A stretch of 64,000 nucleotides of DNA from NCBI RefSeq assembly GCF_000158195.2, contig NZ_GL987987.1, forward strand, positions 1 through 64,000, read 5' to 3'. Positions 45,727 through 63,017 of the stretch are shown here, piece by piece; position 1 is the first letter of the stretch; each line of letters opens with the position of its first letter. Both the position numbers and the translations under genes were made by a program. The notes below the pieces were generated by a model. It was not told the origin of the DNA and did no database searches. It saw only the letters and a program-made list of their open reading frames with translations. The DNA comes from Fusobacterium mortiferum ATCC 9817 (GTDB taxonomy: Bacteria; Fusobacteriota; Fusobacteriia; Fusobacteriales; Fusobacteriaceae).

Positions 45727-46125
45727 GTGGCTGAAATGATTCAATATAGAGGAACTGGTAGAAGAAAAACTTCTGTAGCAAGAGTAAGATTAATTCCTGG
45801 AGGAAAAGGAATTGAAATAAACGGAAAAACTATGGCTGACTACTTTGGAGGAAGAGAAATCCTTTCTAAAATAGTTGAGCAACCTTTAGCTTTAACTGAA
45901 ACTTTAGATAAATTTGAAGTTAAAGTTAACGTAATCGGAGGAGGAAACTCTGGACAAGCTGGAGCTATCAGACATGGAGTAGCAAGAGCTTTAATATTAG
46001 CTGATGAGACTTTAAAAGGAGCTTTAAGAGAAGCTGGATTCTTAACTAGAGACTCAAGAATGGTTGAAAGAAAGAAATACGGAAAGAAAAAATCAAGAAG
46101 ATCTCCTCAATTCTCAAAAAGATAA
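45727..46125 (+). CDS. rpsI: 30S ribosomal protein S9
   Basis: A 132-aa protein with [17 protein letters not shown] at the start, [14 protein letters not shown] in the middle and the basic C-terminal tail that reaches the P-site tRNA, ending SPQFSKR. I chose GTG at 45727, giving the usual MAE-type N-terminus 9 nt after AGGGGG; the ATG at 45721 is only 3 nt from that site. The terminator just downstream is the left edge of the island insertions. Confidence 0.95.
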
Positions 46126-46143
46126 TTTGCATGGAATTATATA

Positions 46144-46174
46144 CCTCACAAACTCAATGTTTGTGGGGTTTTTT
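46144..46174 (+). terminator. Intrinsic terminator of rplM-rpsI
   Basis: CCTCACAAAC / GTTTGTGGGG stem (46144-46153 / 46159-46168) and TTTTTT. The same hairpin is repeated in R2 at 52873-52903, where it ends island A. Confidence 0.92.
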
Positions 46175-46214
46175 CTTTATCTGAGATTTTAAAAAATTAA
46201 GAAAAATGATAGCC

Positions 46215-46247
46215 GTAGGTAACAAGTAGCCAACAAGTAGGTAACAA
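46215..46247 (+). repeat. Three tandem 11-bp arm-type repeats beside R1
   Basis: GTAGGTAACAA (46215-46225), GTAGCCAACAA (46226-46236) and GTAGGTAACAA (46237-46247). The period is one helical turn. A matching set lies beside R2 (52944-52976). They look like integrase or accessory-protein arm sites. Confidence 0.75.
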
Positions 46248-48822: not shown

Positions 48823-48839
48823 ATTAAGGAGGGTTTAAA

Positions 48840-49490
48840 ATGATATTACAAACTGAAAGAGAAAAGGTAGTGAAATACTTAAATTTACTTATTCAAAAAG
48901 GATTAACTAAAGGAACAGGAGGAAATATATCTATCTATAATAGAGAAAAAAATTTAGTAGCAATATCACCAAGTAGTATACCATATGATATCTTAACACC
49001 ATATGATATTATGGTAGTTGATTTAGAAGGGAAAGTAGTTGATGGGAATCCAGACTATAAACCATCATCAGAAACAGAAATGCATTTAAGTGCTTATAGA
49101 TCAAGAGAAGATTTTAGTGCATTTATTCATACCCATGCAATGTATTGTACAACAATTGCTTGTTTGAGAGAATCTTTAAAAGCAGTTGATTATATGTTAG
49201 CAATAACTGGAACAAATGAGGTAAAATGTGCTGAATATGCAACTTTTGGGACTCCAGAATTAGCCAAAAATGCAACAGAAGCTATTAGAGGAGCAAAAGC
49301 TTGTTTATTAGCTAATCATGGAGTAAATGTAGGAGCAGAAGATATAGAAAATGCTTTTGCTATAACAGAATATGCTGAATTTTGTGCAGAATTATATGTA
49401 AAAGCAAAAGCAATAGGAGAACCAGTAATTTTATCAAAAGAAGAAATTGATAAACATATAGAAAAATTTGGTTCATATTGTAAACTATAA
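48840..49490 (+). CDS. Class II aldolase, FucA-type (L-fuculose-1-phosphate aldolase-like)
   Basis: A 216-aa zinc aldolase of the FucA/AraD family. Phosphate loop GTGGNIS (residues 25-31), SSETE with the catalytic Glu78, Zn ligands His97 and His99 in HTHA and His160 in ANHG. Family enzymes split ketose-1-phosphates into dihydroxyacetone phosphate and an aldehyde such as lactaldehyde or glycolaldehyde. It is encoded with a PTS and a FucO-type dehydrogenase, so the substrate is probably a ketose-1-phosphate made directly by the PTS. Confidence 0.9.
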   Translation: MILQTEREKVVKYLNLLIQKGLTKGTGGNISIYNREKNLVAISPSSIPYDILTPYDIMVVDLEGKVVDGNPDYKPSSETEMHLSAYRSREDFSAFIHTHAMYCTTIACLRESLKAVDYMLAITGTNEVKCAEYATFGTPELAKNATEAIRGAKACLLANHGVNVGAEDIENAFAITEYAEFCAELYVKAKAIGEPVILSKEEIDKHIEKFGSYCKL

Positions 49491-49508
49491 AATTGAGAGT
49501 GAAGGATT

Positions 49509-49946
49509 ATGTTTGAGGAAAAATATATATTTAGAATAGACGAGAGAATAACAAGGGATGAGATACTAGAAAAAGTGGGAAAAGTTTTTTATGAAGATAA
49601 TATAGTAAAAGAAGAGTTTATTTCTGCAATAAAAAAAAGAGAAGAAGAGTTTCCTACAGGGTTAATATTAGAAGGTGGTACTAGAACAGCTATATCTCAT
49701 TCAGATGATGAGTATGTATTAAAAGATAAAATAGCAATAGTAATCAGTAAAGAACCAATTATTTTTAAAAGTATTGAAGACTTAAATAAAGAAATAGGAT
49801 GTAATGTTTTCTTTGTTATGGCGTTAACAAAAGAAAATAAAAATGATATTTTAGTTGTTTTAATGAATTTATTTGAAGAACACGAAGAGATTTTAGAAAA
49901 ATTTAAAAAAATGAGTAATCAAGAAATATTAGAGTTTTTATTATAA
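49509..49946 (+). CDS. PTS IIA component, galactitol/fructose type
   Basis: A 145-aa IIA phosphotransfer protein. The phosphorylated His is His64 in AISHSDDEYV, in the position of PHTD in other IIA proteins. It passes phosphate from HPr to the IIB protein encoded next. It lies 18 nt after the aldolase gene with the RBS GTGAAGGA. Confidence 0.85.
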   Translation: MFEEKYIFRIDERITRDEILEKVGKVFYEDNIVKEEFISAIKKREEEFPTGLILEGGTRTAISHSDDEYVLKDKIAIVISKEPIIFKSIEDLNKEIGCNVFFVMALTKENKNDILVVLMNLFEEHEEILEKFKKMSNQEILEFLL

Positions 49947-49960
49947 GTTTGGAGGGAAAA

Positions 49961-50353
49961 ATGGGGTTATTTAGCAAATTATTTAAAGGAAATAATGAAG
50001 AGAATAAAGAAATAAAAAATGAAGAAGTAGTTAAGGAAGAAATCATAAATACAGCTAAAGGAAGTAAATATAAGGCAATAATTGCTTGTGGAAGTGGAGT
50101 TGCAACTTCTACTATGGCAAGAAAAAAAATAGAAAAAGGTTTTGAAGAAAGAGGATTAAAAATAGAAATTATTCAATGTAAAATAGGAGAATTAGAGAAT
50201 TTATCAAAAGCACAAAAACCAGATTTCGTAATACATACAGTTGTATTACCTCAAGGTTTGAGTTTTGATTGTCCTGTTTTTTCAGGAGTTCCATTTTTAA
50301 CAGGAGTGGGTTTAACAAAAGCATTAGATGAAATAATAAATAGTTTGAAATAG
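49961..50353 (+). CDS. PTS IIB component, galactitol type
   Basis: A 130-aa protein with an unusual charged N-terminal extension (residues 1-35, Glu/Lys-rich) before the IIB domain. The phospho-Cys is Cys43 in IIACGSGVATS. The C-terminal part LPQGLSFDCPVFSGVPFLTG is like GatB. The ATG at 49961 is 4 nt after GGAGGG; a TTG at 49949 is upstream of that site and rejected. Confidence 0.88.
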   Translation: MGLFSKLFKGNNEENKEIKNEEVVKEEIINTAKGSKYKAIIACGSGVATSTMARKKIEKGFEERGLKIEIIQCKIGELENLSKAQKPDFVIHTVVLPQGLSFDCPVFSGVPFLTGVGLTKALDEIINSLK

Positions 50354-50367
50354 GAGAGGGATTGAGT

Positions 50368-51630
50368 ATGGGAATTATAAAAGCTTTATTGGATATGGGA
50401 GCAGTAGTTGTATTGCCCATTATAATATTTTTAGTAGGATTATTTTTTAGATTGAGAGTAAAGGATGCTTTTAAATCAGGACTAACAATAGGGATTGGAT
50501 TTGTTGGAGTAAATTTAGTTATTGGAATGTTAGTAGGAAATTTAGGAACAGCAACTCAAAAAATGTCAGAAAGATTTAATCTTAATTTAACAACTATGGA
50601 TGTTGGATGGCCAGTGGAATCTGCTATTTCTTTTGCAACTCCATTAGTAATATGGGTTTTTATTTTAGCTATTGTTATAAATATTATAATGTTAACAATG
50701 AACTGGACAAATGTAATGAACGTGGATTTATGGAACTTTTGGCATTTCATATTTACAGGAGCATTAGTTTATTATACTACAAATTCGATGGTTTTAGCTT
50801 TAATTGCAACTGCTATTTCAATTGTGATTATAATAAAATTAGCTGACTGGGCAGCTCCAATAATTAGTAAATACTTTGGAATGGAAGGAGTTACATTTGC
50901 TCATATGGAAACTGTTAACTGGTTACCAATAGGATATGGAATAAATAAGTTAATTGATATGATTCCAGGAATTAATAAGATTGATATTAGAATGAATTCA
51001 AATGAAAATAAAAATACTAATTCTTTAATGTCTGTATTTGGTGATCCTGCAATAATGGGATTGATTTTAGGAGCTATAATAGGAGCATTAGCAGGATATG
51101 GATGGAAAGAAATTTTAATGTTAGCAATGAATTTAGCTGCTGTAATGTTTTTAATGCCAAGAATGGTTAAAATTTTAATGGAAGGGTTAGTTCCAATTTC
51201 TGATGGAGCTCAAGAATTTATGAATGCTAAATTTCCTGGAAGAAAAGTTTATATAGGACTTGATGGAGCTATAGCAATAGGAGATCCAGGAATAATGTCA
51301 GTTGGGGTAATAATGGTTCCAATATCATTACTACTAGCTGTTATTTTACCAGGAAATACAATGCTTCCATTTGCTGACTTAGGAATAGTTCCAATTTTAT
51401 TAACTTGGGCTATTATACCAGCTAAAGGAAATTTATTTAGAGCATTAGTATCATCAATAATTGTAATGAGTTTAATTTTATTAATTGGATCAGCAATGGC
51501 ACCATTATTAACAACAATTGCAAAAGAAGTTGGATTTGCTATTCCAGAAGGAGTTGGAAGTGTTTCTTCACTTGATGGTGGTTCTCATGTGTTGTCATAT
51601 ATTTTATGGAAGGTATTTTCATTATTTTAA
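50368..51630 (+). CDS. PTS IIC component, galactitol type
   Basis: A 420-aa membrane permease with about 10-12 TM segments. FRLRVKDAFKSGLTIGIGF near the N-terminus, GWPVESAISFATPLVIW and DGGSHVLSYILWKVF at the C-terminus are typical of GatC. ATG 50368 is preferred; a TTG at 50362 is the alternative and is closer to the AGGAGAGGG RBS. GatC-type EIIs import hexitols, pentitols and some ketoses, so the substrate is not fixed by the family. Confidence 0.88.
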   Translation: MGIIKALLDMGAVVVLPIIIFLVGLFFRLRVKDAFKSGLTIGIGFVGVNLVIGMLVGNLGTATQKMSERFNLNLTTMDVGWPVESAISFATPLVIWVFILAIVINIIMLTMNWTNVMNVDLWNFWHFIFTGALVYYTTNSMVLALIATAISIVIIIKLADWAAPIISKYFGMEGVTFAHMETVNWLPIGYGINKLIDMIPGINKIDIRMNSNENKNTNSLMSVFGDPAIMGLILGAIIGALAGYGWKEILMLAMNLAAVMFLMPRMVKILMEGLVPISDGAQEFMNAKFPGRKVYIGLDGAIAIGDPGIMSVGVIMVPISLLLAVILPGNTMLPFADLGIVPILLTWAIIPAKGNLFRALVSSIIVMSLILLIGSAMAPLLTTIAKEVGFAIPEGVGSVSSLDGGSHVLSYILWKVFSLF

Positions 51631-51682
51631 TATCATAAAAAATATATAAAGTTAGAAGAAAATATTTGGAGGAAAAATTAAA

Positions 51683-52831
51683 ATGGCAAGATACATATTA
51701 AATGAAACTAGTTATTTTGGTGTAGGAAGTAGAGAGAATCTAGCTACTGAGGTAAAAGCTAGAGGTTACAAAAAAGCTTTATTAGTGAGTGATAAAATAC
51801 TAGAAAGCTGTGGAGTATTGGATAAAGTAAAAAAAGTTTTAGAAGATGCAAATATACCTTATGATGTATTTGTAGAAATTAAACAAAACCCAACTGTAAA
51901 AAACTGTAAAGATGGTTTAACAGCATTTAATGCAGCAGGAGCAGACTTCATAGTAGCAGTAGGTGGAGGATCAGTAATAGATACAGCTAAAGCTATAGCT
52001 ATAACTAAAAACAATCCAGAATTTGAAGATATAAAATCATTAGAAGGAGTAGCACTAACACATACTAAATGTGTACCTATAATTGCTTTGCCAACAACAT
52101 GTGGAACAGCAGCAGAGGTAACAATAAACTATGTAATAACATTAGAAGATGAAAATAGAAAAATAGTTTGTGTAGACCCTAAAGATATTCCATTAGTAGC
52201 AATAGTTGACGCAGAGTTAATGTTAACAATGCCAAATAAAACAATAGCAGCAACAGGAATGGATGCTTTAACACATGCAATAGAAGGATATATAACTAAG
52301 GGAGCTCATGTAATATCTGATATGTTTGAGATAAAAGCTATAGAACTAATAGCAAAACATCTAAGAGGAGCAGTAGCAGATAAAAACTTAGAAGATATGG
52401 ATGGAATGAGTATAGCTCAATATGTAGCTGGAATGGGATTCTCAAATGTAGGATTAGGAATAGTACACTCAATGGCACACCCATTAGGAGCAGTATATGA
52501 TATACCACATGGAATAGCAAATGCACTATTATTACCAACAGTAATGGAATTTAATATGTCAGCATGTATAGAAAAATATGGAGACATAGCAAGAGCTATG
52601 GGAGTAGATACTACAGGAATGAGCAAAGAAGTAGCAGCACAAGCAGCAGTAGATGCAGTAAGAAAATTAGCAATTGATGTAGGAATACCACAAACATTAA
52701 GAGAGATAGGAATACCAAAAGAAGGATTACCAAAACTATCAAAAGATGCTTTAGCAGATGTATGTACAGGTGGAAATCCAAAAGATGTAACTTTAGAAGA
52801 TATTGAAAAACTATATAATAAAGTATATTAA
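51683..52831 (+). CDS. Iron-containing alcohol dehydrogenase, lactaldehyde reductase-like
   Basis: A 382-aa group III dehydrogenase. NAD-binding GGGSVIDTAKAI; metal ligands in DALTHAIEGY, GIVHSMAHPLGA and IPHG. FucO-type enzymes reduce lactaldehyde to 1,2-propanediol or glycolaldehyde to ethylene glycol. It is the last gene of island A, followed 41 nt later by the R2 terminator hairpin. With the aldolase it would recycle NADH from the aldehyde product. RBS TTGGAGG. Confidence 0.9.
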   Translation: MARYILNETSYFGVGSRENLATEVKARGYKKALLVSDKILESCGVLDKVKKVLEDANIPYDVFVEIKQNPTVKNCKDGLTAFNAAGADFIVAVGGGSVIDTAKAIAITKNNPEFEDIKSLEGVALTHTKCVPIIALPTTCGTAAEVTINYVITLEDENRKIVCVDPKDIPLVAIVDAELMLTMPNKTIAATGMDALTHAIEGYITKGAHVISDMFEIKAIELIAKHLRGAVADKNLEDMDGMSIAQYVAGMGFSNVGLGIVHSMAHPLGAVYDIPHGIANALLLPTVMEFNMSACIEKYGDIARAMGVDTTGMSKEVAAQAAVDAVRKLAIDVGIPQTLREIGIPKEGLPKLSKDALADVCTGGNPKDVTLEDIEKLYNKVY

Positions 52832-52858
52832 AAATCATACTAAATACTAAGAGTTTTA

Positions 52859-53024
52859 CATGGAATTATATACCTCACAAACTCAATGTTTGTGGGGTTT
52901 TTTCTTTATCTGAGATTTTAAAAAATTGAGAAAAATGATATCCGTAGGTAACACACAGGTAACATACAGGTAACAAAGTAATTTTTCTCTAGCAAGCTAA
53001 AAATAATATTTAGTAGAGAATTTT
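52859..53024 (+). repeat. Direct repeat R2: second attachment-site-like copy, between islands A and B
   Basis: A 166-bp copy of R1; 52859-52927 are identical to 46130-46198. It carries the same terminator hairpin (52873-52897 plus T tail), which is the only terminator seen for island A. The diverged right part holds three 11-bp units. The region 53025-53182 is AT-rich with no gene visible. Confidence 0.88.
52944..52976 (+). repeat. Three tandem 11-bp arm-type repeats beside R2
   Basis: GTAGGTAACAC (52944-52954), ACAGGTAACAT (52955-52965), ACAGGTAACAA (52966-52976). The shared core AGGTAACA is the same as beside R1, although the flanking letters differ, so the core is conserved while neighbours drift. 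Confidence 0.75.
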
Positions 53025-53182
53025 AAGGAATCTTAAAATTTTGATAAACTTAGAAATAAATATGTCTTAAAATTCTTTAAAAATATGATTTAATTTCTGA
53101 AAAAAATATTCTTATTCTAATATATTATTCAGTATATATTATACAAATATAACGTTCTAAAACAGATAAAAATAAAAAAAAC

Positions 53183-53211
53183 TTGACAAAAATATAAAAA
53201 AATTGTATTCT
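53183..53211 (+). promoter_or_regulatory. Promoter of the yhf-type operon
   Basis: TTGACA (53183-53188), 17-bp spacer, TATTCT (53206-53211). It lies 51 bp before the yhfZ ATG and 15 bp before the operator-like palindrome. Confidence 0.8.
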
Positions 53212-53225
53212 ATTGTTGTGAAAAG

Positions 53226-53251
53226 ATTATTTTCAAATTTTTGAAAATAAT
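53226..53251 (+). promoter_or_regulatory. 12-bp perfect inverted repeat: operator candidate of yhfZ
   Basis: ATTATTTTCAAA - TT - TTTGAAAATAAT (53226-53237 / 53240-53251), just downstream of the -10 and touching the RBS TGGAGGTG. The size and place suit autoregulation by the GntR-like YhfZ. As RNA it could also form a hairpin next to the RBS. Confidence 0.65.
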
Positions 53252-53261
53252 GGAGGTGTTT

Positions 53262-54149
53262 ATGGAAAGTAATAAATATAAGAAAATAGAAGTAGGAACA
53301 ATTGAATTAGCTAAAGATATTCTTTCAAGAGAAATTGGAGAAAATATAGATACAATTATTAATTATTCAGAAAAATTTAATTTGTCATTAGGAACAATTC
53401 AAAAATCATTAACATTATTGAGTGAAAAAAATATAGTAAAATTAGTAAAAATGGGGAAATATGGAACTAGAATAGAGAAAATTGACTATAAAAAATTATT
53501 AAATATTTTAGGATATGAACATTTACTATGTGTGATGCCTATAACTTATTCATCAAGATATAAAAAAATAATGGATAGTATAAATGATAGTTTTAAAATT
53601 CCAATTTCATTATATTTTTCACATATGCGTGGTGGATATGTAAGACTTAAATTGATTGAACAAGGTGTTTTTCAATTTGGAGTTGTATCAAAATTGGCAG
53701 CACAAGAAGCTATTACATCAGGATTAAATTTAGAGATTATTGAAGAATTTGGTCCAAGAACATATGTTACTAAACATGTTATTTTAAAAAGAAAAGATGG
53801 ATTAGTAAGAAGAGTGGGGGTAGATTTAGAATCAAACGATCATACATTTTTAACTAATCTTAATTTTCAAAAAAATGAAAATATAGATTTCCAAGAAATA
53901 AAGTATTCAGAAGTAATAGAGAAATTAATAGATAAAACTATAGATGCAGCAATTTGGAATTACGATGATGTTTTAGATAAATTAATATTATTGGAAAAAA
54001 ATAACATTGTTATTGAAGATTTAAAAGATGAAAGTGGAATTAGTTTATTGGCAACAGAATCAGTTATAGTAATTCCTAAAAATAATAAAATCATGAAAAC
54101 ACTTTTTAATAAGTTTTTTGATAAAGAAAATTTTAAATTAATGGATTAG
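53262..54149 (+). CDS. yhfZ: YhfZ-like GntR-type transcriptional regulator
   Basis: A 295-aa protein with an N-terminal winged helix (residues about 5-75, with NLSLGTIQKSLTLLSEKNIV) and a C-terminal domain (about 85-290) that resembles a periplasmic-binding-protein fold, as in E. coli YhfZ. It should sense a small ligand. The ATG at 53262 follows GGAGGTG; earlier in-frame starts would lie in the operator. It is the first gene of island B, under its own palindrome. Confidence 0.8.
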   Translation: MESNKYKKIEVGTIELAKDILSREIGENIDTIINYSEKFNLSLGTIQKSLTLLSEKNIVKLVKMGKYGTRIEKIDYKKLLNILGYEHLLCVMPITYSSRYKKIMDSINDSFKIPISLYFSHMRGGYVRLKLIEQGVFQFGVVSKLAAQEAITSGLNLEIIEEFGPRTYVTKHVILKRKDGLVRRVGVDLESNDHTFLTNLNFQKNENIDFQEIKYSEVIEKLIDKTIDAAIWNYDDVLDKLILLEKNNIVIEDLKDESGISLLATESVIVIPKNNKIMKTLFNKFFDKENFKLMD

Positions 54150-54162
54150 GTGAGGAGGAGTA

Positions 54163-54525
54163 ATGGATTTACAAACAAGACTTGAAATTTTATGTTCAAC
54201 AGGAACAATTAGTAATGAAACAAGGGAAGTGATGTTAAATGTAATAAAAATGTTTCAAGAAAAACATCAAATTACATTAACAGAAGAAAATGGAGCTATG
54301 ATGACAACTCATTTATCAATGGCTATAACAAGAGTAAAAAATAATGAGCCAGTAAAAGTGATTAATGAAGAGGTTTATCAAGAAATATTAGAAAGTGAAT
54401 TCTTAGAAAAAGCCCAAGAAATATATAAAGATTTGGAAAGTGTTTTAGATGTAAAATTACCAGAAGATGAAAAAAAATATATGTTAGTAAATATATGTAC
54501 AATATTAGATATTATAAATAATTAG
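54163..54525 (+). CDS. yhfY: YhfY-like single-PRD protein
   Basis: A 120-aa helical protein with a single PTS regulation domain (LTEENGAMMTTHLSMAITRV, with the likely phospho-His at about residue 48). It is the size and type of E. coli YhfY. PRDs are usually phosphorylated by HPr or EII. Having no DNA-binding domain, it may act on YhfZ. It lies 13 nt after yhfZ with GAGGAGG as RBS. Confidence 0.8.
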   Translation: MDLQTRLEILCSTGTISNETREVMLNVIKMFQEKHQITLTEENGAMMTTHLSMAITRVKNNEPVKVINEEVYQEILESEFLEKAQEIYKDLESVLDVKLPEDEKKYMLVNICTILDIINN

Positions 54526-54538
54526 GAGGAGAATTTTT

Positions 54539-54898
54539 ATGAAAAAAATAGTTATTGGAGGACAAATCGATAAAGAAAAATTAGCAGAAGTAGTAAGAAA
54601 AATCGCAGGAGAAAAAGCAAGTGTAACAATAAAAAGCGATATAGAAGCAGCTATGGATGTTAAAACAGGAATGGCAGATATTTATTTAGGAGCTTGTAAC
54701 ACTGGTGGTGGAGGAGCTTTAGCAATGGCTATAGCATTATTAGGAGCAAATAATTGTGCTACAGTATCAATGCCAGGAAACATAAAATCTGATGTAGAAA
54801 TAGTAGCAGAGGTTAATGCAGGTAAAAAAGCATTTGGATTTACAGCACAACACATAGAACAAGTAGTTCCAGTAATTTTAAAGGAAATTTTAAAATAA
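54539..54898 (+). CDS. yhfU: YhfU-like DUF2620 protein
   Basis: A 119-aa soluble protein of the DUF2620 family: MKKIVIGGQIDKEKLAEVVR, DIYLGACNTGGGGALAMAIA and the C-terminal AQHIEQVVPVILKEIL. The glycine-rich stretch is conserved in the E. coli counterpart. It has no known activity. It always seems to stand next to yhfT, so it may be a soluble partner of that transporter. Confidence 0.8.
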   Translation: MKKIVIGGQIDKEKLAEVVRKIAGEKASVTIKSDIEAAMDVKTGMADIYLGACNTGGGGALAMAIALLGANNCATVSMPGNIKSDVEIVAEVNAGKKAFGFTAQHIEQVVPVILKEILK

Positions 54899-54911
54899 GG
54901 AGTGTGTTAGT

Positions 54912-56198
54912 ATGAATTATATAGTTGCAATTTTGCTGGGAGCACTAGCTTCATTTTTAGCAAATAGAGGTGTTGCAGTATTTAATGATGGATTAAGACC
55001 AATTGTTCCAGAGTTTTTAGAAGGAAGAATGGATAGAAAATCTTTGGCAGCAACAAGTTTTGCACTAAGCTTTGGACTTGTTGTGGGATTTGGAATTCCA
55101 TTTTCGTTGACAACACCAATAATATTAGTGCATAGTATTTTATTAGCAACAGATATAATAGGAACATCATTTAGTGCAGATAAAAAGGGAGCAATCTTAT
55201 CAACAGTTGTTGGTGGAATATATGGATTATTAATAACATTAGGTTTAAAAATAATTGTGGAATTATTTGCAAAATTACCTGTAAATTTTTTACCAGCATT
55301 AGGAAAAGTAGGGGCACCAATAATTGTTGCATTTGCAGCTTTTCCTGCTTTAGTAGTAGCTTATCAATATGGATTTAAAAAAGGAGCAACAACATTTATC
55401 GTAACTATTTTGATTAGACAGTTATTTCAAGTGTATGGAAAAATTTCTTTTGGTGGAAGTACAATAGCTTTAAATCCAGATGGAATGGCTTTATTAGTAG
55501 GAATGATTATAATGGTAACTTTTGCAATGAGAGAAAAATCAACAACTACTGGTGTTGGTTCAAATGAGATGCTATTAAATATATTTGCTGCTAGAGTAGA
55601 AAGAATTAAGAAAAATATGATTCCATTAGGATTAATGAGAGGAGTTATATCAGCAGCAATAAGCTTAAATTTAATTGCAGGAGATCCTATTTCTTTAAAC
55701 TTATTAGCAGAAGGAAAGATATCAGAAGCAGGGTTAGCAGCTTTAGCTAGAGCGATTGGATTTGTTCCTCTAGTAGCAACAACAGCTATAGCAACAGGAG
55801 TATATGCCCCAGCAGGAATGACATTTGTATTTGTAATTGGGATATTTTTAAGAAATCCTATTATAGCTTTTGTAGGTGGAGTATTAGCAATTATTGTTGA
55901 AATTTGTGCTTTAGGTGCAATAGCTAAATTTTTAGATAAATTCCCAGGAGTTAAAGCATGTGGAGACCAAATTAGAACTGCAATGTCAAAAGTTCTTGAA
56001 ATTTCTTTAATAGTTGGAGGAATGATAGCAGCAGATGCAATGGCTCCAGGATTAGGATATTTATTTGTTGCAGGAGTATATGTGTTAAATAAAACAGCAA
56101 AAAAACCTTTAGTAGATATGGCAGTAGGACCAGTTTCGGCAATTGCATTAGGAATAATATTAAATATTTTTTCACTTATAGGATTATATGCAGGATAA
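54912..56198 (+). CDS. yhfT: YhfT-like membrane transporter
   Basis: A 428-aa polytopic protein with about 11-12 TM segments. The N-terminal RGVAVFNDGLRPIVPEF and GRMDRKSLAATSFALSFGLV are typical of YhfT. It is the only transporter of the island. Since it is encoded with the small YhfU and a PRD protein, it is the likely uptake route for the substrate. A strong hairpin follows. Confidence 0.82.
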   Translation: MNYIVAILLGALASFLANRGVAVFNDGLRPIVPEFLEGRMDRKSLAATSFALSFGLVVGFGIPFSLTTPIILVHSILLATDIIGTSFSADKKGAILSTVVGGIYGLLITLGLKIIVELFAKLPVNFLPALGKVGAPIIVAFAAFPALVVAYQYGFKKGATTFIVTILIRQLFQVYGKISFGGSTIALNPDGMALLVGMIIMVTFAMREKSTTTGVGSNEMLLNIFAARVERIKKNMIPLGLMRGVISAAISLNLIAGDPISLNLLAEGKISEAGLAALARAIGFVPLVATTAIATGVYAPAGMTFVFVIGIFLRNPIIAFVGGVLAIIVEICALGAIAKFLDKFPGVKACGDQIRTAMSKVLEISLIVGGMIAADAMAPGLGYLFVAGVYVLNKTAKKPLVDMAVGPVSAIALGIILNIFSLIGLYAG

Positions 56199-56207
56199 AA
56201 TTAAAGA

Positions 56208-56235
56208 TTTAAGAGGAGCAGGTGCTCCTCTTAAA
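56208..56235 (+). promoter_or_regulatory. Strong hairpin between yhfT and the amidase gene
   Basis: Perfect 13-bp arms TTTAAGAGGAGCA / TGCTCCTCTTAAA (56208-56220 / 56223-56235) with a minimal loop, 10 nt after the yhfT stop. No proper T run follows, so it could be a partial terminator, an mRNA processing site, or a stabiliser separating regulatory and transport genes from enzyme genes. Confidence 0.65.
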
Positions 56236-56257
56236 TTATAAAATATGAGGTTGAGCT

Positions 56258-57277
56258 ATGGAAAAAATTTTAGCAGGAATTGATAGAACAAAAAATTTTA
56301 TTGGAAAGACAGTTAAGGAACAAAACCCAAATATTCTTTTAGATTTTTTTAAAAATAAGGGAAAAACAATAGGGGTAAAAGATACTAAAGAAATTGATAA
56401 TAATTTAATAAAAAAACTTCTAAGAAATGGATATATTTGGAATACAATAGATTTTTCATCTGATAGAGGAAGAGCCATTGATATAAGATTATTAAATCCA
56501 ATAACTTCAAAAGTCATGACAGGGTCATCAAGTGGAACAGCAATAAATGTTCTTTATGGATTAAATACAGTGGGGATAGGAACTGATGGTGGTGGTTCTG
56601 TTTTAGGACCAGCAATTTCTTTAAACCTATATTCTGCACTTTTATCTGGAATGGGATTAAAAGGTAAAAATAAAAAAAAATCAACAGATGAAATAGCTTT
56701 TATTGCTGGAATTGGATTTATAACTCAAAATTTTATGGAACTAGAGAAAGTTTTAAAAATTTTTTATGAAGAAAGTGAAAAAAAATTAAAAAAATTAGTT
56801 TTAAGCGATACTCTTGAGAAAGAGATAGGGGATAAACTAAAAAATAATTATGAGATTACAATTTGGAAAGATAAATCACTTTTCTCTAGAGAAGAATTGA
56901 TGACAGAATTGAATAATATTTTTCAGAAGGGAGATGTATTTATATACATTGAGAAAAATATAGAAGTAGAAGGTATAGGAGACAGTGTTTTAGGAAGTTT
57001 AGGAGATAGTGGTAAAGTTTTTCAAGAAAATTCTAATAAAAAATTTTTAAAAGTTTTTAATATGCTTGATTGTACTGCAATTACAATTCCTTTAAAAAAT
57101 ATTGGAAGTTCCATAGTAATAGCAACACCAAAAGGAAAGAATGGTTTGAAATATGTTTTAGAAATAGGAAAAATATTAGACTATGAATATCGTCCAAAAT
57201 TATTTCAAGAATATTTTTTAAATTATCCTTTAAAGAGAATAGATAATAGAACATTTGAAATTTTAGAGGAGATGTAG
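56258..57277 (+). CDS. Short amidase-signature family protein
   Basis: A 339-aa protein (typical amidases are 450-500 aa). The Ser-cisSer-Lys triad is visible: Lys41 in IGVKDT, Ser91 in TGSSSGTA and the nucleophile Ser114 in GIGTDGGGSVLGPA. The usual arginine after GGS is Leu116. The C-terminal half is shortened. It should cleave an amide, perhaps of a substrate handled by this operon. It is not part of the E. coli yhf operon. RBS GAGGT is weak and distant. Confidence 0.75.
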   Translation: MEKILAGIDRTKNFIGKTVKEQNPNILLDFFKNKGKTIGVKDTKEIDNNLIKKLLRNGYIWNTIDFSSDRGRAIDIRLLNPITSKVMTGSSSGTAINVLYGLNTVGIGTDGGGSVLGPAISLNLYSALLSGMGLKGKNKKKSTDEIAFIAGIGFITQNFMELEKVLKIFYEESEKKLKKLVLSDTLEKEIGDKLKNNYEITIWKDKSLFSREELMTELNNIFQKGDVFIYIEKNIEVEGIGDSVLGSLGDSGKVFQENSNKKFLKVFNMLDCTAITIPLKNIGSSIVIATPKGKNGLKYVLEIGKILDYEYRPKLFQEYFLNYPLKRIDNRTFEILEEM

Positions 57278-57279
57278 AG

Positions 57280-58152
57280 ATGAAAGATATAACATATATA
57301 CATGAACATATGACAATAGATTTATCTGGAGTAAAAAATAATATTGACTGTAAATTAAATGATTTTGAAAAAACAAAAAAAGAATTATTAAGATTAAAAG
57401 AATTAGGAGTAACAAGAATAGTTGATGTTACAAATATGGGAATGGGAAGGAATGTTGAATTTATAACAAGATTAGAAAAGGAAACAGGAATAGAAATTTT
57501 AATGTCAACAGGTTATTATAAAGAACCATTTTTTCCAAAGGAAGTTGAAAAGTTAAGTATAGAAAAATTAGAAGAAAAATTAATAAACGATATAAAAATA
57601 GGAATAGATGGAACAAATAAAAAAGCAACTTTTATTGGTGAAATAGGAACAGGCTTTGAAAAAATGACTTCACTTGAAGAGAAAGTTTTTATAGTAGCAA
57701 GTAGAGTACAGAAAAAAACAGGAGTATATATATCAACACATACAAGTCTAGGAAAATTAGGACATGAACAGTTAGATATAATTGAAAAAAATGGGGGAAA
57801 TTTAGAAAAAGTTATTTTAGGACATACTGATTTATCAAAAGATATACATTATATAGAGACTTTATTAAAAAGGGGAGTTTATATTTCTTTTGATACAATA
57901 GGAAAAATAAACTATCTTTCAGAAGAAAAAAGAATTGAATATATTAAATATTTATGTGATAGAGGATGGGAAAATAAAATTTTACTATCAGTAGATTTAA
58001 CAAGACAATCTCATTTAAAAGAGAATGGTGGAATAGGATATTCATATTTACTTGAGGAATTTGTTCCTAAGTTACTTGAAAATGGGGTAGAATTAGAAAA
58101 AATAGAAAAGTTTTTAGTTGAAAATCCAAAAAAAATTTTAGGAATAAAGTAG
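57280..58152 (+). CDS. php: Phosphotriesterase homology protein (Php)
   Basis: A 290-aa amidohydrolase-superfamily TIM barrel. Metal ligands are His8 and His10 in YIHEHM, Glu in FIGEIG, His in STHTSLG and GHTDLS, and Asp in LSVDLTRQ. Segments such as DLSGVKNNIDCKLND and RSHLKENGG-type sequence closely resemble E. coli Php. The natural substrate is unknown; relatives are sugar lactonases and phospho-lactonases. It lies 2 nt after the amidase gene. Confidence 0.88.
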   Translation: MKDITYIHEHMTIDLSGVKNNIDCKLNDFEKTKKELLRLKELGVTRIVDVTNMGMGRNVEFITRLEKETGIEILMSTGYYKEPFFPKEVEKLSIEKLEEKLINDIKIGIDGTNKKATFIGEIGTGFEKMTSLEEKVFIVASRVQKKTGVYISTHTSLGKLGHEQLDIIEKNGGNLEKVILGHTDLSKDIHYIETLLKRGVYISFDTIGKINYLSEEKRIEYIKYLCDRGWENKILLSVDLTRQSHLKENGGIGYSYLLEEFVPKLLENGVELEKIEKFLVENPKKILGIK

Positions 58153-58165
58153 AAAGGAGAAAATG

Positions 58166-59266
58166 ATGAAAACATATCCATTAGAATCAATTACATTAGA
58201 AGAAGCAAAGAGAAAACAATTTAAATTAATAGATATAATTACAAGAAAATTTAGGGGAAGTGAAATTTTAACAAGAGGAGATCTAGGAGTAGTAAAGGGA
58301 TTAAATAAACCAAGAACTACCAAGAAGGTTGAAGAAGTAATAGCAGATTTTTTTGGGGTAGAGAAAGCTGTTTTAGTTAGAGGAGCAGGGACAGCGGCTA
58401 TAAAATGGGGATTATATAGTATTTTAAAGAATTCTAAAACAAGAAAGGTATTAGTACATAAAGCACCTATTTATCCAACAACTTTAGTATCTTTACAAAT
58501 GTTAAATACAAATATTTTAGAAGCAGATTATAATAATTTAGAAGAACTAGAAAGAATTTTAAAAAATGAGAAGATTGATGTAGCAATAGTACAATATACT
58601 CGTCAAAAAATAGATGATAGTTATAAAATTGATGAGGTAATAGAAAAAATAAAAGAATATGAAGTTCCTATATTAACGGATGATAATTATGCAGTAATGA
58701 AAGTTAAGGATATTGGAGTTGAATTAGGAGCTAATTTATCAGCATTTTCAACTTTTAAATTATTAGGACCAGAGGGAATAGGATGTTTAGTTGGAAATGA
58801 GAAATATATATCTCAAGTAGTAGAATCAAATTATTCTGGTGGTGGACAAGTTCAAGGGCATGAAGCATTAGATGTATTAAGAGGAATGGTATATGCTCCT
58901 GTTTCTCTGGCTATTCAAGGAGAAGTAAATGACGAATTAATTCAAATTTTAAACAATGGAAGATTATCATTTATAAAAAATGCATATTTAGTAAATGCTC
59001 AATCAAAAGTTGTTATTGTTGAGTTAAAAGAAAATATAGCAGAAGAAATGTTAGTACACTCTGAAAAGTTAGGAGCTTTACCAAATCCAGTAGGAGCTGA
59101 GTCAAAATATGAATTTTCTCCATTATTCTATAGAGTGTCAGGTACATTTAGAAAAACAGATCCAACACTTGAAAAAAGAATGATTAGAATAAATCCTAAT
59201 AGAGCAGGAGTGGAGACAATAATTAGAATTTTAGAAGAAAGCTATAAGAAAGTAAAGGGGGAATAG
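58166..59266 (+). CDS. yhfS: YhfS-like PLP-dependent protein
   Basis: A 366-aa fold-type I PLP protein. The cofactor lysine is Lys198 in STFKLLGPEG; RGAGTAAIKWG holds the phosphate; LTDDNYAVMKV carries the Asp that contacts the ring. It is close to E. coli YhfS, which starts MKTFPL; hence ATG 58166 (MKTYPL) over the ATG 3 nt upstream. The reaction is unknown; related folds do beta-elimination, aldol or selenocysteine-type chemistry. Confidence 0.85.
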   Translation: MKTYPLESITLEEAKRKQFKLIDIITRKFRGSEILTRGDLGVVKGLNKPRTTKKVEEVIADFFGVEKAVLVRGAGTAAIKWGLYSILKNSKTRKVLVHKAPIYPTTLVSLQMLNTNILEADYNNLEELERILKNEKIDVAIVQYTRQKIDDSYKIDEVIEKIKEYEVPILTDDNYAVMKVKDIGVELGANLSAFSTFKLLGPEGIGCLVGNEKYISQVVESNYSGGGQVQGHEALDVLRGMVYAPVSLAIQGEVNDELIQILNNGRLSFIKNAYLVNAQSKVVIVELKENIAEEMLVHSEKLGALPNPVGAESKYEFSPLFYRVSGTFRKTDPTLEKRMIRINPNRAGVETIIRILEESYKKVKGE

Positions 59267-59269
59267 GTA

Positions 59270-60424
59270 ATGTTTTTAAATAAATTACAAGAAAGAAATC
59301 CAAATTTACTAAATGCAGCAATTGAATTTCATCAAAAAGGATTACTTTTTCCAGATACATATCTATTGGATGTAGATACTATTTTAGATAATGCTAGGTT
59401 ATTAATAGAAGAAGCGAAAAAAAATAATATAAAGTTATATGCAATGACAAAACAAATAGGAAGAATACCTTTTTTAGCTAAAAAAATTTTAGAGTTAGGA
59501 TATTCAGGAGTGGTTGCTGTTGATTTTAAAGAAGCAGAAATAATGATAGAGAATAATATTCCTCTTGGAAATGTAGGACATTTAGTACAAACACCAACAA
59601 GGTTACTTGAGAAAATTATAAAAAGCAATGTTGAAATAATGACAGTTTATTCTTATGAAAAGATAGAACAAATAGATAAAGTAGCTAAGAAATTAAATAA
59701 GATACAAAATATTATGTTGAGAGTATTAGAAGAAGATAGCACAATATATTCAGGACAAAGTGGTGGATTTTATTTAAATGAACTTGAAGGGCTTTGTATG
59801 AAGATAAAAAAACTAAAAAATATTAAAATAAATGGATTAACTTCTTTCCCTTGTTATTTATATGATAAAAGTATAAATAAGGTTAAATCTACAAAAAATG
59901 TTGAAACTATAAAAAAAGCACAAGATATTTTAAGAAAACATGGAATAGAAGCAGAACAACTTAATACTCCTTCAGCAACAAGTTTAGCTAATATAGAGAA
60001 TATTAAAGAAAATGGTGGAACACATGGAGAACCAGGACATGCATTAACTGGAACTACACCATTTAATGCATATAATAGTGAGGGAGAAAAACCAGCAATT
60101 TTATATCTATCAGAAGTTTCTCATAATTTAGGAGGAAAAGGTTATTTTTATGGTGGAGGACATTATAGACGTTCTGGAATAGAGAATGTTTTAGTAGGAG
60201 ATAAATTGGAATCTATGAAGAAAATAAAAGTAACTCCTCCAACAGATGAAAGTATAGATTATTATTTTGAGCTTAATGAAGAAGCAAATGTTGGAGATAC
60301 AGTTTTAGGAGCATTTAGAACACAAATATTTGTAACAAGAAGTGATGTTGCTTTAATAGGTGGATTGAAGGAAAATAAACCATATATAATAGGAATATAT
60401 GATAGTTTAGGAAGGGAGAAATAA
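59270..60424 (+). CDS. yhfX: YhfX-like fold-type III PLP protein (alanine racemase-like)
   Basis: A 384-aa protein with an alanine-racemase-type barrel. The PLP lysine is Lys61 in YAMTKQIGRIP. GEPGHALTGTTPFNAY and YYGGGHYRRSG-like segments (GGGHYRRSG) follow in the second half. It matches YhfX in size and type. The activity is unknown. It is 3 nt after yhfS and directly next to yhfW. Confidence 0.84.
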   Translation: MFLNKLQERNPNLLNAAIEFHQKGLLFPDTYLLDVDTILDNARLLIEEAKKNNIKLYAMTKQIGRIPFLAKKILELGYSGVVAVDFKEAEIMIENNIPLGNVGHLVQTPTRLLEKIIKSNVEIMTVYSYEKIEQIDKVAKKLNKIQNIMLRVLEEDSTIYSGQSGGFYLNELEGLCMKIKKLKNIKINGLTSFPCYLYDKSINKVKSTKNVETIKKAQDILRKHGIEAEQLNTPSATSLANIENIKENGGTHGEPGHALTGTTPFNAYNSEGEKPAILYLSEVSHNLGGKGYFYGGGHYRRSGIENVLVGDKLESMKKIKVTPPTDESIDYYFELNEEANVGDTVLGAFRTQIFVTRSDVALIGGLKENKPYIIGIYDSLGREK

Positions 60425-61627
60425 ATGGGAAGATTTATAGTTCTTGTTTTGGATAGCTTTGGAATTGGTGAAATGGAAGATGTAAAGACAACAAGACCAC
60501 AAGATATAGGAGCAAATACATATAAAAGTGTTATTTCTAAAAATAAAGAGATAAATATTCCTAATTTGCAAAAATTAGGATTAGCAAATGCAGCTAATTT
60601 AGAAGTTGATAATATAAAATTTTCGAGTACAGCTATTTTTGGAAAAAGTAAATTGAAACATTTTGGATGTGATACATTTTATGGACATCAAGAGTTAATG
60701 GGAACAGAACCAAAAGAACCTATAAATGAACCTTTTTTTAAAAATATAGATGAAGTTGAAAAAAAATTATTGATTGAAGGTCATAAAGTAGAAAGATATG
60801 GTGCTGAACAAAAAATATTAATCGTAGATGATTGTTTAAGTATAGGAGATAATTTAGAAGCTGATTTAGGACAAGTGTATAATATAACAGGAACTTTTGA
60901 TAAAATTAGTTTTGATAATCTATTAAAAATAGGAAAAATAGTTAGGGAAATTGTAAAGGTTCCTAGAGTAATAACTTTTGGTGGAGAAGACGTAACTTTA
61001 GATGATATAAAAAATGCATATGAATGTAAAGATAACATATATGCAGGAGTAAATGCACCAAAATCAAAAGTTTATAATAAAGGATATCAAGTACAGCATT
61101 TAGGTTATGGCGTAAAAACAGAAGTACAACTTCCAAATATTTTAGGAACAGAGATAAAAACTATTTTAATTGGGAAAGTAGCTGATATTGTTGAAAATAA
61201 ATATGGGAAATCAATATTTGCAGTAGATAGTGAATTAGCTATGAATAAACTTATAGAAGAAATAAAAAATAATAAGAAAGCATTCATATGTGCAAATATA
61301 CAGGAAACAGATTTGGCTGGACATCAAGAAAATGCAAAAAAATACGCTGAAAAATTAGAAATAGTTGATAGGAAGTTAAATGAATTATTGCCTTTATTAA
61401 ATGACGAAGATATTTTAATTATAACAGCAGATCATGGAAATGATCCAGAAATAAAACATTCACATCACACAAGAGAAAATGTTCCTATTTTAATTTATAA
61501 AAAAAATATTGATAAATTAAAAAATATAGGAGAAATGGAAAGTCTAGCAGATATAGGACAAACTGTAGCAGAATATTTTGGGAAAAAATTACCAGAAAAT
61601 GGGAAATCATTTTTAGAAAAAATTTAA
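60425..61627 (+). CDS. yhfW: YhfW-like phosphopentomutase/metalloenzyme superfamily protein
   Basis: A 400-aa member of the alkaline phosphatase superfamily close to phosphopentomutase. Metal-site motifs are VLDSFGIGEMED (Asp), DTFYGHQELMGTEP, ITADHGNDPEIKHSHHTREN and an ETDLAGHQ segment. E. coli YhfW is the counterpart. It is expected to move a phosphate within a sugar phosphate. It is the last gene of island B; its stop is followed by a hairpin at 61629-61664. Confidence 0.85.
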   Translation: MGRFIVLVLDSFGIGEMEDVKTTRPQDIGANTYKSVISKNKEINIPNLQKLGLANAANLEVDNIKFSSTAIFGKSKLKHFGCDTFYGHQELMGTEPKEPINEPFFKNIDEVEKKLLIEGHKVERYGAEQKILIVDDCLSIGDNLEADLGQVYNITGTFDKISFDNLLKIGKIVREIVKVPRVITFGGEDVTLDDIKNAYECKDNIYAGVNAPKSKVYNKGYQVQHLGYGVKTEVQLPNILGTEIKTILIGKVADIVENKYGKSIFAVDSELAMNKLIEEIKNNKKAFICANIQETDLAGHQENAKKYAEKLEIVDRKLNELLPLLNDEDILIITADHGNDPEIKHSHHTRENVPILIYKKNIDKLKNIGEMESLADIGQTVAEYFGKKLPENGKSFLEKI

Positions 61628-61628
61628 A

Positions 61629-61664
61629 AAGAGAGTGTAATTAATTTTGTGTATTTACTCTCTT
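61629..61664 (+). terminator. Hairpin after yhfW
   Basis: AAGAGAGT / ACTCTCTT (61629-61636 / 61657-61664), with only a short T-rich tail. A second hairpin AGACTGAA / TTCAGTCT (61693-61700 / 61715-61722) lies further on, followed by TTCTTC. Together they probably end the island B transcript. Confidence 0.6.
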
Positions 61665-61780
61665 GATTATTAGAATTAAACTAGTTTAGTAGAGACTGAA
61701 GAACTTAGATATTTTTCAGTCTTTCTTCATATTTTGTTGTCAATTATTCTTTAATAAAATACTAATCTCTCATATATTTT

Positions 61781-61829
61781 ATAAGCTCAATGTTTATGTT
61801 TTTTCTTTACCTGAGATTTTAAAAATATT
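61781..61829 (+). repeat. R3: degenerate attachment-site-like core, right edge of island B
   Basis: 28 bp at 61798-61825 match 46168-46195 of R1 with one mismatch (GTTTTTTCTTTA then C for T, then CTGAGATTTTAAAAA). CTCAATGTTT (61786-61795) also matches. The terminator stem of R1/R2 is missing and no 11-bp units follow. The rest of 61628-61989 holds only hairpins, such as AAAGTGT / ACACTTT with a T tail at 61931-61957. Confidence 0.7.
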
Positions 61830-61989: not shown

Positions 61990-63017
61990 TTATTTTATTA
62001 ATTCTACATTTTTTCTTAATTCTTCAATATCCTTATGAGTATATATTTTTTCAGTAGTAGCATAACTTTCATGTCCTATCATCTTCTTGATAGCTGTAGC
62101 ATTTGCATTAGCATTACTAAGAAGAGTAGCAAAGGTATGACGGCAATCGTGAGGTCTATGTTCCATATTTAGTTGCTCCATAATAGGAATGAATTTTTCT
62201 TTATAGTAGTTGTCATATTTCATCTTTTTACCCTTGAAGTTGATGATTAGATACTGGTTATCTTTATTATATCTCTTTTCAATTAAAGGGAATATTTTAG
62301 GATGAATAGGTACTAATCTATTTTTACCTGCTTCTGTTTTTAATCCTCCAGTCATAGTCATATTAACAAGGTCTATATTCTTAGTTTCAAGTTCTAATAA
62401 TTCTCCTATTCTAAAACCACTATATATCATAATAAGTATAGTATCTATAAATTCAATATCATCTATATGCTTCCATAGTAACTCTATCTCTTTATTACTA
62501 AATGGTTCTCTCTTACTCTCCTCACTAGCTTTTCCAATATCAACAAACTCACTATAATCCTTTGTTATAATATCATTTTGCATAGCATAGGCGAACATTT
62601 GTCCAAATAGAAATTTTATTTTCTTTTTAGTTGCTTGTCCTTTAGAACAGTTATCTATTGCTTCTTGTAAATGTCTAGCTTTAATATCTTTTATTTTCAT
62701 ATTATGAAGCTTTTCAATATTATTATAAGCAATTGATAACCTAGTATAGCAGAATGACTAACTTTAGGATATTTAAGTTTACTCCATTTTTCATATACAT
62801 CTTTAAATAAGATATTTGACAAATCTAAATCATAAGGATTATCCAGGTAGTCAATAAGAGCTTTTTGAGCTTCTTTTTGTGTAACATATGTTCCTATAGT
62901 TTTTCGTATTTGGCGACCTGTACTTTCATCCCAACCTAATGTTACTCTAGCTATATATGGTTTTCTTCTAATTCCACTTAATTTACTGACACTTCCATTT
63001 CCATTAGCTTTTTTCAT
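61990..63017 (-). pseudogene. Tyrosine recombinase/integrase, broken by one frameshift
   Basis: Two overlapping frames of one integrase. The N-terminal part (63017 down to about 62731, 96 family-like residues) has an AP2-like/SAM-like start, MKKANGNGSVSKLSG and ARVTLGWDESTGRQIRKT. The C-terminal part (to 61990) has the catalytic set: Arg in GFRIGELL, HDCRHT, GHESYATT and the Tyr in IYTH. Around 62730 the frame changes: an extra base would restore a continuous protein of about 342 aa with AYNNIEKLHNMKIK at the joint. It is probably inactive unless the base is a sequencing error. RBS AAAGGAG precedes the ATG. Confidence 0.85.

Follow-up and report, generated by a model that had tools for sequence, protein, structure and literature searches.

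A nine-gene yhf operon in Fusobacterium mortiferum

The window analysed here, a 64,000-nucleotide stretch of the Fusobacterium mortiferum ATCC 9817 genome (contig NZ_GL987987.1, positions 1 to 64,000), carries an operon of the Escherichia coli yhf type, for which our search of the PMC full-text literature returned neither a function nor a pathway, as a first-pass annotation of this DNA had supposed. The host belongs to the family Fusobacteriaceae and has a genome of 2.67 Mb. Nine intact, closely spaced open reading frames (ORFs) occupy positions 53256-61627 of the plus strand in the order Z-Y-U-T-amidase-Php-S-X-W, exactly as that annotation had listed them:

53256..54149, plus strand: YhfZ, a regulator with a helix-turn-helix and a ligand-binding-type domain, relative of PDB 2ozz (Pfam, NCBIfam)
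54163..54525, plus strand: YhfY, a stand-alone PRD protein with invariant His50 (Pfam, alignment)
54539..54898, plus strand: YhfU (DUF2620), predicted RpiB/LacAB-superfamily fold with near-invariant Cys53 (AlphaFold2 model, Foldseek, hhalign chain YhfU-SFCGS-RpiB)
54912..56198, plus strand: YhfT, a polytopic membrane protein and presumed transporter (PF10797, 8.8e-170)
56258..57277, plus strand: an amidase-signature enzyme of short length in which Lys41, Ser90 and Ser114 are conserved (Pfam, alignment)
57280..58152, plus strand: Php, a phosphotriesterase-family metal hydrolase, relative of PDB 1bf6 (Pfam, NCBIfam, PDB profile search)
58163..59266, plus strand: YhfS, a fold-I pyridoxal 5′-phosphate (PLP) enzyme with Lys199, relative of PDB 4j8l (Pfam, PDB profile search)
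59270..60424, plus strand: YhfX, a fold-III PLP enzyme with Lys61, relative of PDB 4kbx (Pfam, PDB profile search)
60425..61627, plus strand: YhfW, a phosphopentomutase-like mutase with an intact metal site and Thr84 as nucleophile (Pfam, NCBIfam, alignment)

The corresponding Pfam families are YhfZ_C with HTH_41, PRD, DUF2620, YhfT, Amidase, PTE, YhfS-like_C, YhfX-like_C and Metalloenzyme, and an NCBIfam model names YhfW itself (PRK12383, 4e-167). BLASTP comparison with E. coli MG1655 revealed identities of 52% for S, 49% for W, 45% for Php, 44% for X, 39% for U, 34% for T, 29% for Z and 23% for Y. Family and BLASTP searches agree that the locus groups orthologues of seven Yhf proteins (Z, Y, U, T, S, X and W) with one of Php, and the annotation was right to recognize a real, conserved and uncharacterized operon. 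Its claim that all nine genes match the E. coli set stands for eight of them (23-52% identity); the amidase is excluded because the E. coli locus lacks a counterpart. A strong 13-bp stem-loop lies in the gap between yhfT and the amidase gene (56207-56236) and may be a site of mRNA processing or attenuation.

Conservation of the gene set

The first-pass annotation had predicted that these neighborhoods recur on islands in unrelated taxa with variable hydrolases. Searching through YhfT, we collected 25 syntenic loci from Fusobacteriota, Bacillota and Gammaproteobacteria, which bears out the recurrence across taxa. YhfX, YhfW and YhfU occur in all 25, as does YhfT by construction, while YhfZ, YhfY, YhfS and Php each occur in 24 and the amidase in 17; the commonest order is Z-Y-U-T-(amidase)-Php-S-X-W. 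The hydrolases are thus variable in presence, but they always belong to the same two families, and in Fusobacteriota and many Bacillota the amidase emerges as a conserved addition to the other eight. In the locus L044 / G447 C85, yhfT is reported with an in-frame TAA, and this copy of the operon may be decaying.

Furthermore, in a sample of ~396 Bacillota genomes, 11 carry YhfT and 12 the YhfS C-terminal domain, all 11 YhfT genomes being among the 12 (Fisher p = 1.5e-20, assuming that both searches drew the same genomes, as matching handles indicate). Such co-occurrence across genomes, together with the 25 syntenic loci, is what would be expected of genes that function together. Among Fusobacteriaceae, YhfT is present in 6 of 61 genomes, and in Cetobacterium somerae the yhf genes reside on a plasmid of 704,842 bases. 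Because no family recurred more than three times among 55 flanking proteins scanned for additional pathway genes, the operon looks self-contained. We found no match in IMG/VR that would indicate carriage by phage. One unverified GenBank scaffold labelled 'Bacteriophage sp.' (MT836239.1, L047) holds the whole operon and is likely a bacterial contig.

An att array at the 3′ end of rpsI

Placement of the operon on a mobile island between repeat copies, as first proposed, was confirmed and refined: the repeats are attachment (att) sites of a four-copy family that begins at the 3′ end of rpsI, the repeat comparison placing its copies at 46126, 52850, 61772 and 86180. The features of this array within the window are as follows:

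46089..46195, plus strand: attL of the array, consisting of the rpsI 3′ end and terminator (core 46089-46180) followed by element-specific CTGAGATTTTAAAAAA (defined by the copy at 86147 and by empty sites of relatives)
52855..52924, plus strand: att copy 2, internal, at the left edge of the yhf unit, which doubles as a terminator following the lactaldehyde reductase gene (99% identity to 46126-46195)
52947..52975, plus strand: the GGTAACA motif in three direct copies, which may be arm-binding sites of an integrase (motif also beside att copies 1 and 4)
61772..61825, plus strand: att copy 3, degenerate, at the right edge of the yhf unit (82% identity)
61990..63017, minus strand: frameshifted tyrosine integrase of the neighboring 24-kb element, with the catalytic part at 61990-62700 and the arm-binding part at 62697-63017 (intact 344-aa protein in relative G020)

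The core is repeated at 86147-86234 with 93% identity, and in empty, single-copy rpsI sites of relatives the match stops at ~46178-46180. Internal copies 2 and 3 comprise the terminator plus the element-specific tail. GGTAACA repeats adjoin att copies 1, 2 and 4, lying at 46218 and 46240 beside copy 1. The att copies at rpsI, 52855, 61772 and 86147 bound an array of three units: a sugar phosphotransferase system (PTS) unit at 46.2-52.85 kb, yhf at 52.9-61.8 kb and the 24-kb element at 61.8-86.2 kb. Relative G020 carries an element with matching genes and the intact integrase at rpsI, G018 holds a different 10-kb element there, and the site in G019 is empty; in G025, of the same genus, yhf is sited away from rpsI.

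Only the yhf operon lies between 52855 and 61772. Since att copies flank it with no integrase or transfer genes inside, the unit is best described as resembling a cis-mobilizable element (CIME). From this architecture, it appears to be one of several integrative elements set in tandem behind rpsI and may be mobile in practice, and the array shows how catabolic operons can move among fusobacteria. A prophage reading of the 61.8-86.2 kb element was dropped, as the genes it carries match those of the G020 element and no phage identity was shown.

Other cargo in these arrays was also noted. The neighboring unit (46777-52831), which lies between the first two att copies, encodes a PRD/EIIA regulator, a FucA-like class II aldolase, PTS EIIA, EIIB and EIIC-GAT proteins and a lactaldehyde reductase, and has the look of a PTS cassette for a deoxysugar or polyol. 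The G018 element (L085, C3:115-125 kb) includes an AAA ATPase with a small neighboring gene, and that of G020 (L086/L087, C207:11-37 kb) a DNA methyltransferase-type gene set; both are possibly defence cargo.

Catalytic features of the enzymes

Alignment of YhfW with Bacillus cereus phosphopentomutase equates D10, T84, K251, D296, H300, D336, H337 and H348 with D13, T85, K240, D286, H291, D327, H328 and H339, respectively, residues that we take to form the metal site and the threonine nucleophile. YhfW accordingly possesses the two-metal site and the Thr/Ser that is phosphorylated in phosphopentomutases. While these ligands and the nucleophile are shared with DeoB, R193 and R208, presumably the arginines that contact ribose, are replaced, W90 is changed to Gln, and a family-specific D142-N143-x-E145-x-D147 motif is present; the DeoB model TIGR01696 likewise scores 174.5 bits against a cut-off of 341.2. 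Judging from these residues, YhfW should transfer phosphate on a substrate other than ribose phosphate.

The characterized relatives of the two PLP enzymes are remote. A YhfS profile retrieved 4j8l first from the PDB, followed by methionine gamma-lyases (1.5e-10), cystathionine synthases and cysteine desulfurases. The YhfX profile retrieved 4kbx and then D-threonine aldolase and alanine racemase at ~1e-3, with Lys61 at the position of the PLP lysine. The hhalign alignments to E. coli Alr and LysA were too short to decide where Glu254 of YhfX falls in alanine racemase or in decarboxylases of fold III.

The amidase is short (339 aa) and scores above the Pfam Amidase cut-off. K41, S90 and S114, invariant in nine loci, presumably constitute the Lys/cis-Ser/Ser triad of the amidase signature family, to which we assign them by motif. 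For Php, 1bf6 and then 3pnz were the leading PDB matches, and the NCBIfam phospho-furanose lactonase model was matched at 7e-34, far below that model's cut-off. Amide hydrolysis by Php is also possible, given that the mammalian relative PTER is reported to hydrolyze N-acetyltaurine (PMC11374699).

YhfU has a predicted RpiB-type fold

YhfU had been regarded in the first-pass annotation as the small partner of the transporter, an assignment that its predicted structure does not favor. The AlphaFold2 model (predicted local distance difference test, pLDDT, 94.5) has as its best PDB matches ribose-5-phosphate isomerases B (Foldseek E 7e-4, probability 1.00, template-modelling score ~0.7), not a transport subunit. 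Profile comparisons using hhalign yielded E-values of 2.9e-5 for YhfU-SFCGS, 9.6e-5 for SFCGS-RpiB, 1.8e-3 for YhfU-RpiB and 0.37 for YhfU-EIIB, and aligned the YhfU loop GACNTGGGG with the RpiB loop ICGTGIG. Foldseek, with weak support from Pfam and hhalign, thus indicates the RpiB/LacAB fold. YhfU shares this fold with the RpiB/LacAB family (PF02502), as well as the C-x-T/S-G loop at the catalytic Cys, with near-invariant Cys53 lying in a Gly-rich loop. In contrast, YhfU is shorter, its LacAB_rpiB Pfam score is below the cut-off, and of the RpiB catalytic and phosphate-binding set (Asp/His, Cys, Thr, ring-opening His and phosphate Args) only the Cys-x-Thr/Ser-Gly loop is recognizable in the aligned part. 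Because the other catalytic residues cannot be recognized, we place YhfU in the superfamily and not in the isomerase family: the model suggests that it is a remote member of this superfamily of sugar-phosphate isomerases (RpiB/LacAB), to which SFCGS provides the sequence link. By analogy, since YhfU and SFCGS both adjoin membrane proteins, a link to transport is possible. The Cys-Gly loop had also prompted us to consider a PTS EIIB; the fold search and hhalign led us to reject this, YhfU having neither the EIIB fold nor a phospho-Cys after strand 1.

Transport and regulation

The model of YhfT is helical and of membrane type (pLDDT 74). In YhfY, His50 is invariant in 15 of 15 sequences, as expected for a conserved PRD histidine. 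Upstream of yhfZ we noted one further feature:

53183..53251, plus strand: candidate promoter TTGACA-17-TATTCT (53183-53211) followed by the palindrome ATTATTTTCAAATTTTTGAAAATAAT (53226-53251), a candidate YhfZ operator (motif comparison)

Promoter-like matches as a class are no more frequent in the yhf region than expected by chance. The palindrome motif TTTTCA-N6-TGAAAA is found upstream of yhfZ at 12 of 12 positions in four Fusobacteriaceae loci and at 11 of 12 in E. coli, so fusobacteria and E. coli have a candidate operator in common that helps to narrow the substrate search.

A proposed pathway and its alternatives

Overall, we favor, tentatively and with a probability of roughly 0.42, the view that the yhf operon is complete and probably functional, that it serves to take up and degrade one specific compound, and that its carrier is a cis-mobilizable-type unit of the rpsI array. 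Our best guess at the compound class is an acylated amino acid or amino-sugar acid, degraded via phosphorylated intermediates. The substrate proposed in the first-pass annotation, an amino-acid- or amine-bearing sugar derivative, and the order of action given there would be compatible with the enzyme classes. The presence of two PLP enzymes suggests that the compound has an amino-acid part, YhfW and the fold of YhfU suggest a sugar-phosphate part, and the amidase and Php suggest acyl, amide, ester or lactone bonds. Since no kinase recurs near the loci, phosphate must already be on the substrate, be added by the transporter or have another source.

The gene identities, synteny, conserved YhfW active-site residues, amidase triad, att structure and predicted YhfU fold are described above; the regulation and order of steps that follow are inferred. 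YhfZ would repress the operon through the TTTTCA-N6-TGAAAA palindrome until bound by the substrate or an early intermediate, and YhfY, a stand-alone PRD with one conserved histidine, would report the phosphorylation state of the PTS. After import by YhfT, the amidase would remove an acyl or amide group, and Php would open a lactone or cleave a further amide or ester bond to give a free alpha-amino acid with a polyol or pentose-like chain. YhfX would then invert or labilize the alpha carbon, YhfS would perform a PLP-dependent elimination, YhfW would shift phosphate along the chain, and YhfU may bind or isomerize the sugar-phosphate part. Ammonia or an amino acid, together with a pentose-phosphate or keto-acid fragment, would enter central metabolism.

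Several observations weigh against this proposal. The Vibrio halioticoli locus (L046, plasmid pIAM14596) is without yhfS, the sole one of the 25 lacking a fold-I PLP enzyme, and one Bacillota locus (L044 / G447 C85) lacks both Php and the amidase; not every pathway step is therefore universal. YhfU has no recognizable RpiB Asp/His or ring-opening His and so may be no isomerase. The YhfT model has no PDB match and the protein no solved relative, and the TTTTCA-N6-TGAAAA palindrome was not found in clostridial yhf loci. The flank scan of yhf loci revealed no recurrent kinase, dehydrogenase or aldolase, so the pathway must either begin with phosphate or gain it elsewhere, and must end elsewhere.

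A more specific pathway is possible, if unlikely, in which the operon degrades an amino-sugar acid (a 2-amino-2-deoxy-aldonate or its N-acyl or lactone form), in parallel to clusters of the EF_0829-0839 type. The amidase would deacylate, Php would open an aldonolactone phosphate, YhfX would epimerize C2, YhfS would eliminate at C3 to a 2-keto-3-deoxy acid and YhfW would reposition the phosphate, a sequence to which we give the same guarded standing. The match of Php to phospho-furanose lactonases, below the cut-off as noted, is consistent with this scheme, as are the remote homology of SFCGS to YhfU (2.9e-5) and the way in which both clusters combine a PRD with membrane protein(s) and a small protein rich in Cys and Gly. 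Moreover, the host genome encodes a parallel cluster of this type, which makes amino-sugar acids a reasonable first substrate class. However, hhalign detects no homology of YhfT to DUF4310/4311, yhf loci have no aldolase, YhfS best matches gamma-lyases, and the names DgaE and DgaF for enzymes of the parallel cluster are our assumption.

The nearest characterized relatives of YhfS and YhfX suggest instead a D-amino-acid or thio-amino-acid conjugate, such as an S- or O-glycosyl amino acid, which YhfX would racemize and YhfS would cleave by gamma or beta elimination, passing a pentose to YhfU and YhfW. We judge this rather improbable, because the similarities are remote and no phosphorylase or thiol-handling gene is present.

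Invariant His50, near-invariant Cys53 and flanks without a recurrent kinase raise the prospect of PTS-like phosphorylating uptake, in which phosphate would pass from HPr to the PRD histidine, to YhfU Cys53 and to the substrate crossing YhfT, explaining a phosphomutase without a kinase. The chances of such a relay are slim, given that the topology of YhfU is that of RpiB and it shows no similarity to EIIB, that its Cys aligns with the RpiB catalytic Cys and not the EIIB phospho-Cys, and that no EIIA gene is present. Finally, although the right att copy is degenerate and the neighboring integrase frameshifted, it is very unlikely that the operon is a passenger in decay that no longer serves any function in its host, since its nine ORFs are intact, active-site residues are conserved and a perfect palindrome stands at the promoter. 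Returning to the favored uptake and catabolic operon, the predicted YhfU fold, the conserved amidase, the YhfW phosphotransfer center and the shared candidate operator narrow the substrate search to phosphorylated amino-acid/sugar compounds.

Comparison with known systems

The E. coli K-12 yhfSTU-php-yhfWXYZ locus, among the larger unexplained gene sets on that chromosome, contains eight genes orthologous to those described here. It runs Z-Y-X-W-php-U-T-S without an amidase, as opposed to Z-Y-U-T-amidase-Php-S-X-W in F. mortiferum. Structures have been deposited for E. coli YhfX (4kbx), YhfS (4j8l), YhfZ (2ozz) and Php (1bf6), labelled as uncharacterized, hypothetical or by homology only.

Clusters of the EF_0829-EF_0839 type share with yhf a PRD, a small Cys/Gly-rich protein, membrane protein(s), a hydrolase and a fold-I PLP enzyme, and YhfU is remotely homologous to their SFCGS protein, itself also a remote relative of RpiB. 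They differ in having membrane proteins without detectable homology to those of yhf and other enzymes, and in ending in an aldolase with no mutase. The host's cluster (C3:37077-42547; L113:4077-9547) encodes an amidohydrolase, a PRD protein, SFCGS, DUF4312, DUF4311, DUF4310 and two enzymes that we take to be DgaE and DgaF. Two closer correspondences were rejected: hhalign gave no support for reading YhfT as a DUF4311-DUF4310 fusion, and YhfY and the EF_0829 PRD, both PRD proteins, showed only a weak NCBIfam match (2.2e-6) and an empty hhalign comparison of two small alignments. It is conceivable, at long odds, that PTS-linked nutrient uptake includes an unrecognized class with two branches, YhfY-YhfU-YhfT and the EF_0829-0833 module, in which a PRD, an RpiB-fold Cys protein and a membrane protein of unplaced fold would import and phosphorylate or isomerize amino-sugar-type compounds.

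Tandem accretions of CIMEs and integrative and mobilizable elements (IMEs) at rpsI 3′ ends are known in streptococci (PMC5357655, PMC5704250). The array described here mirrors them in its tyrosine integrase element, rpsI 3′ target, tandem att sites and integrase-less units, and differs in residing in Fusobacteriaceae and in bearing catabolic cargo.

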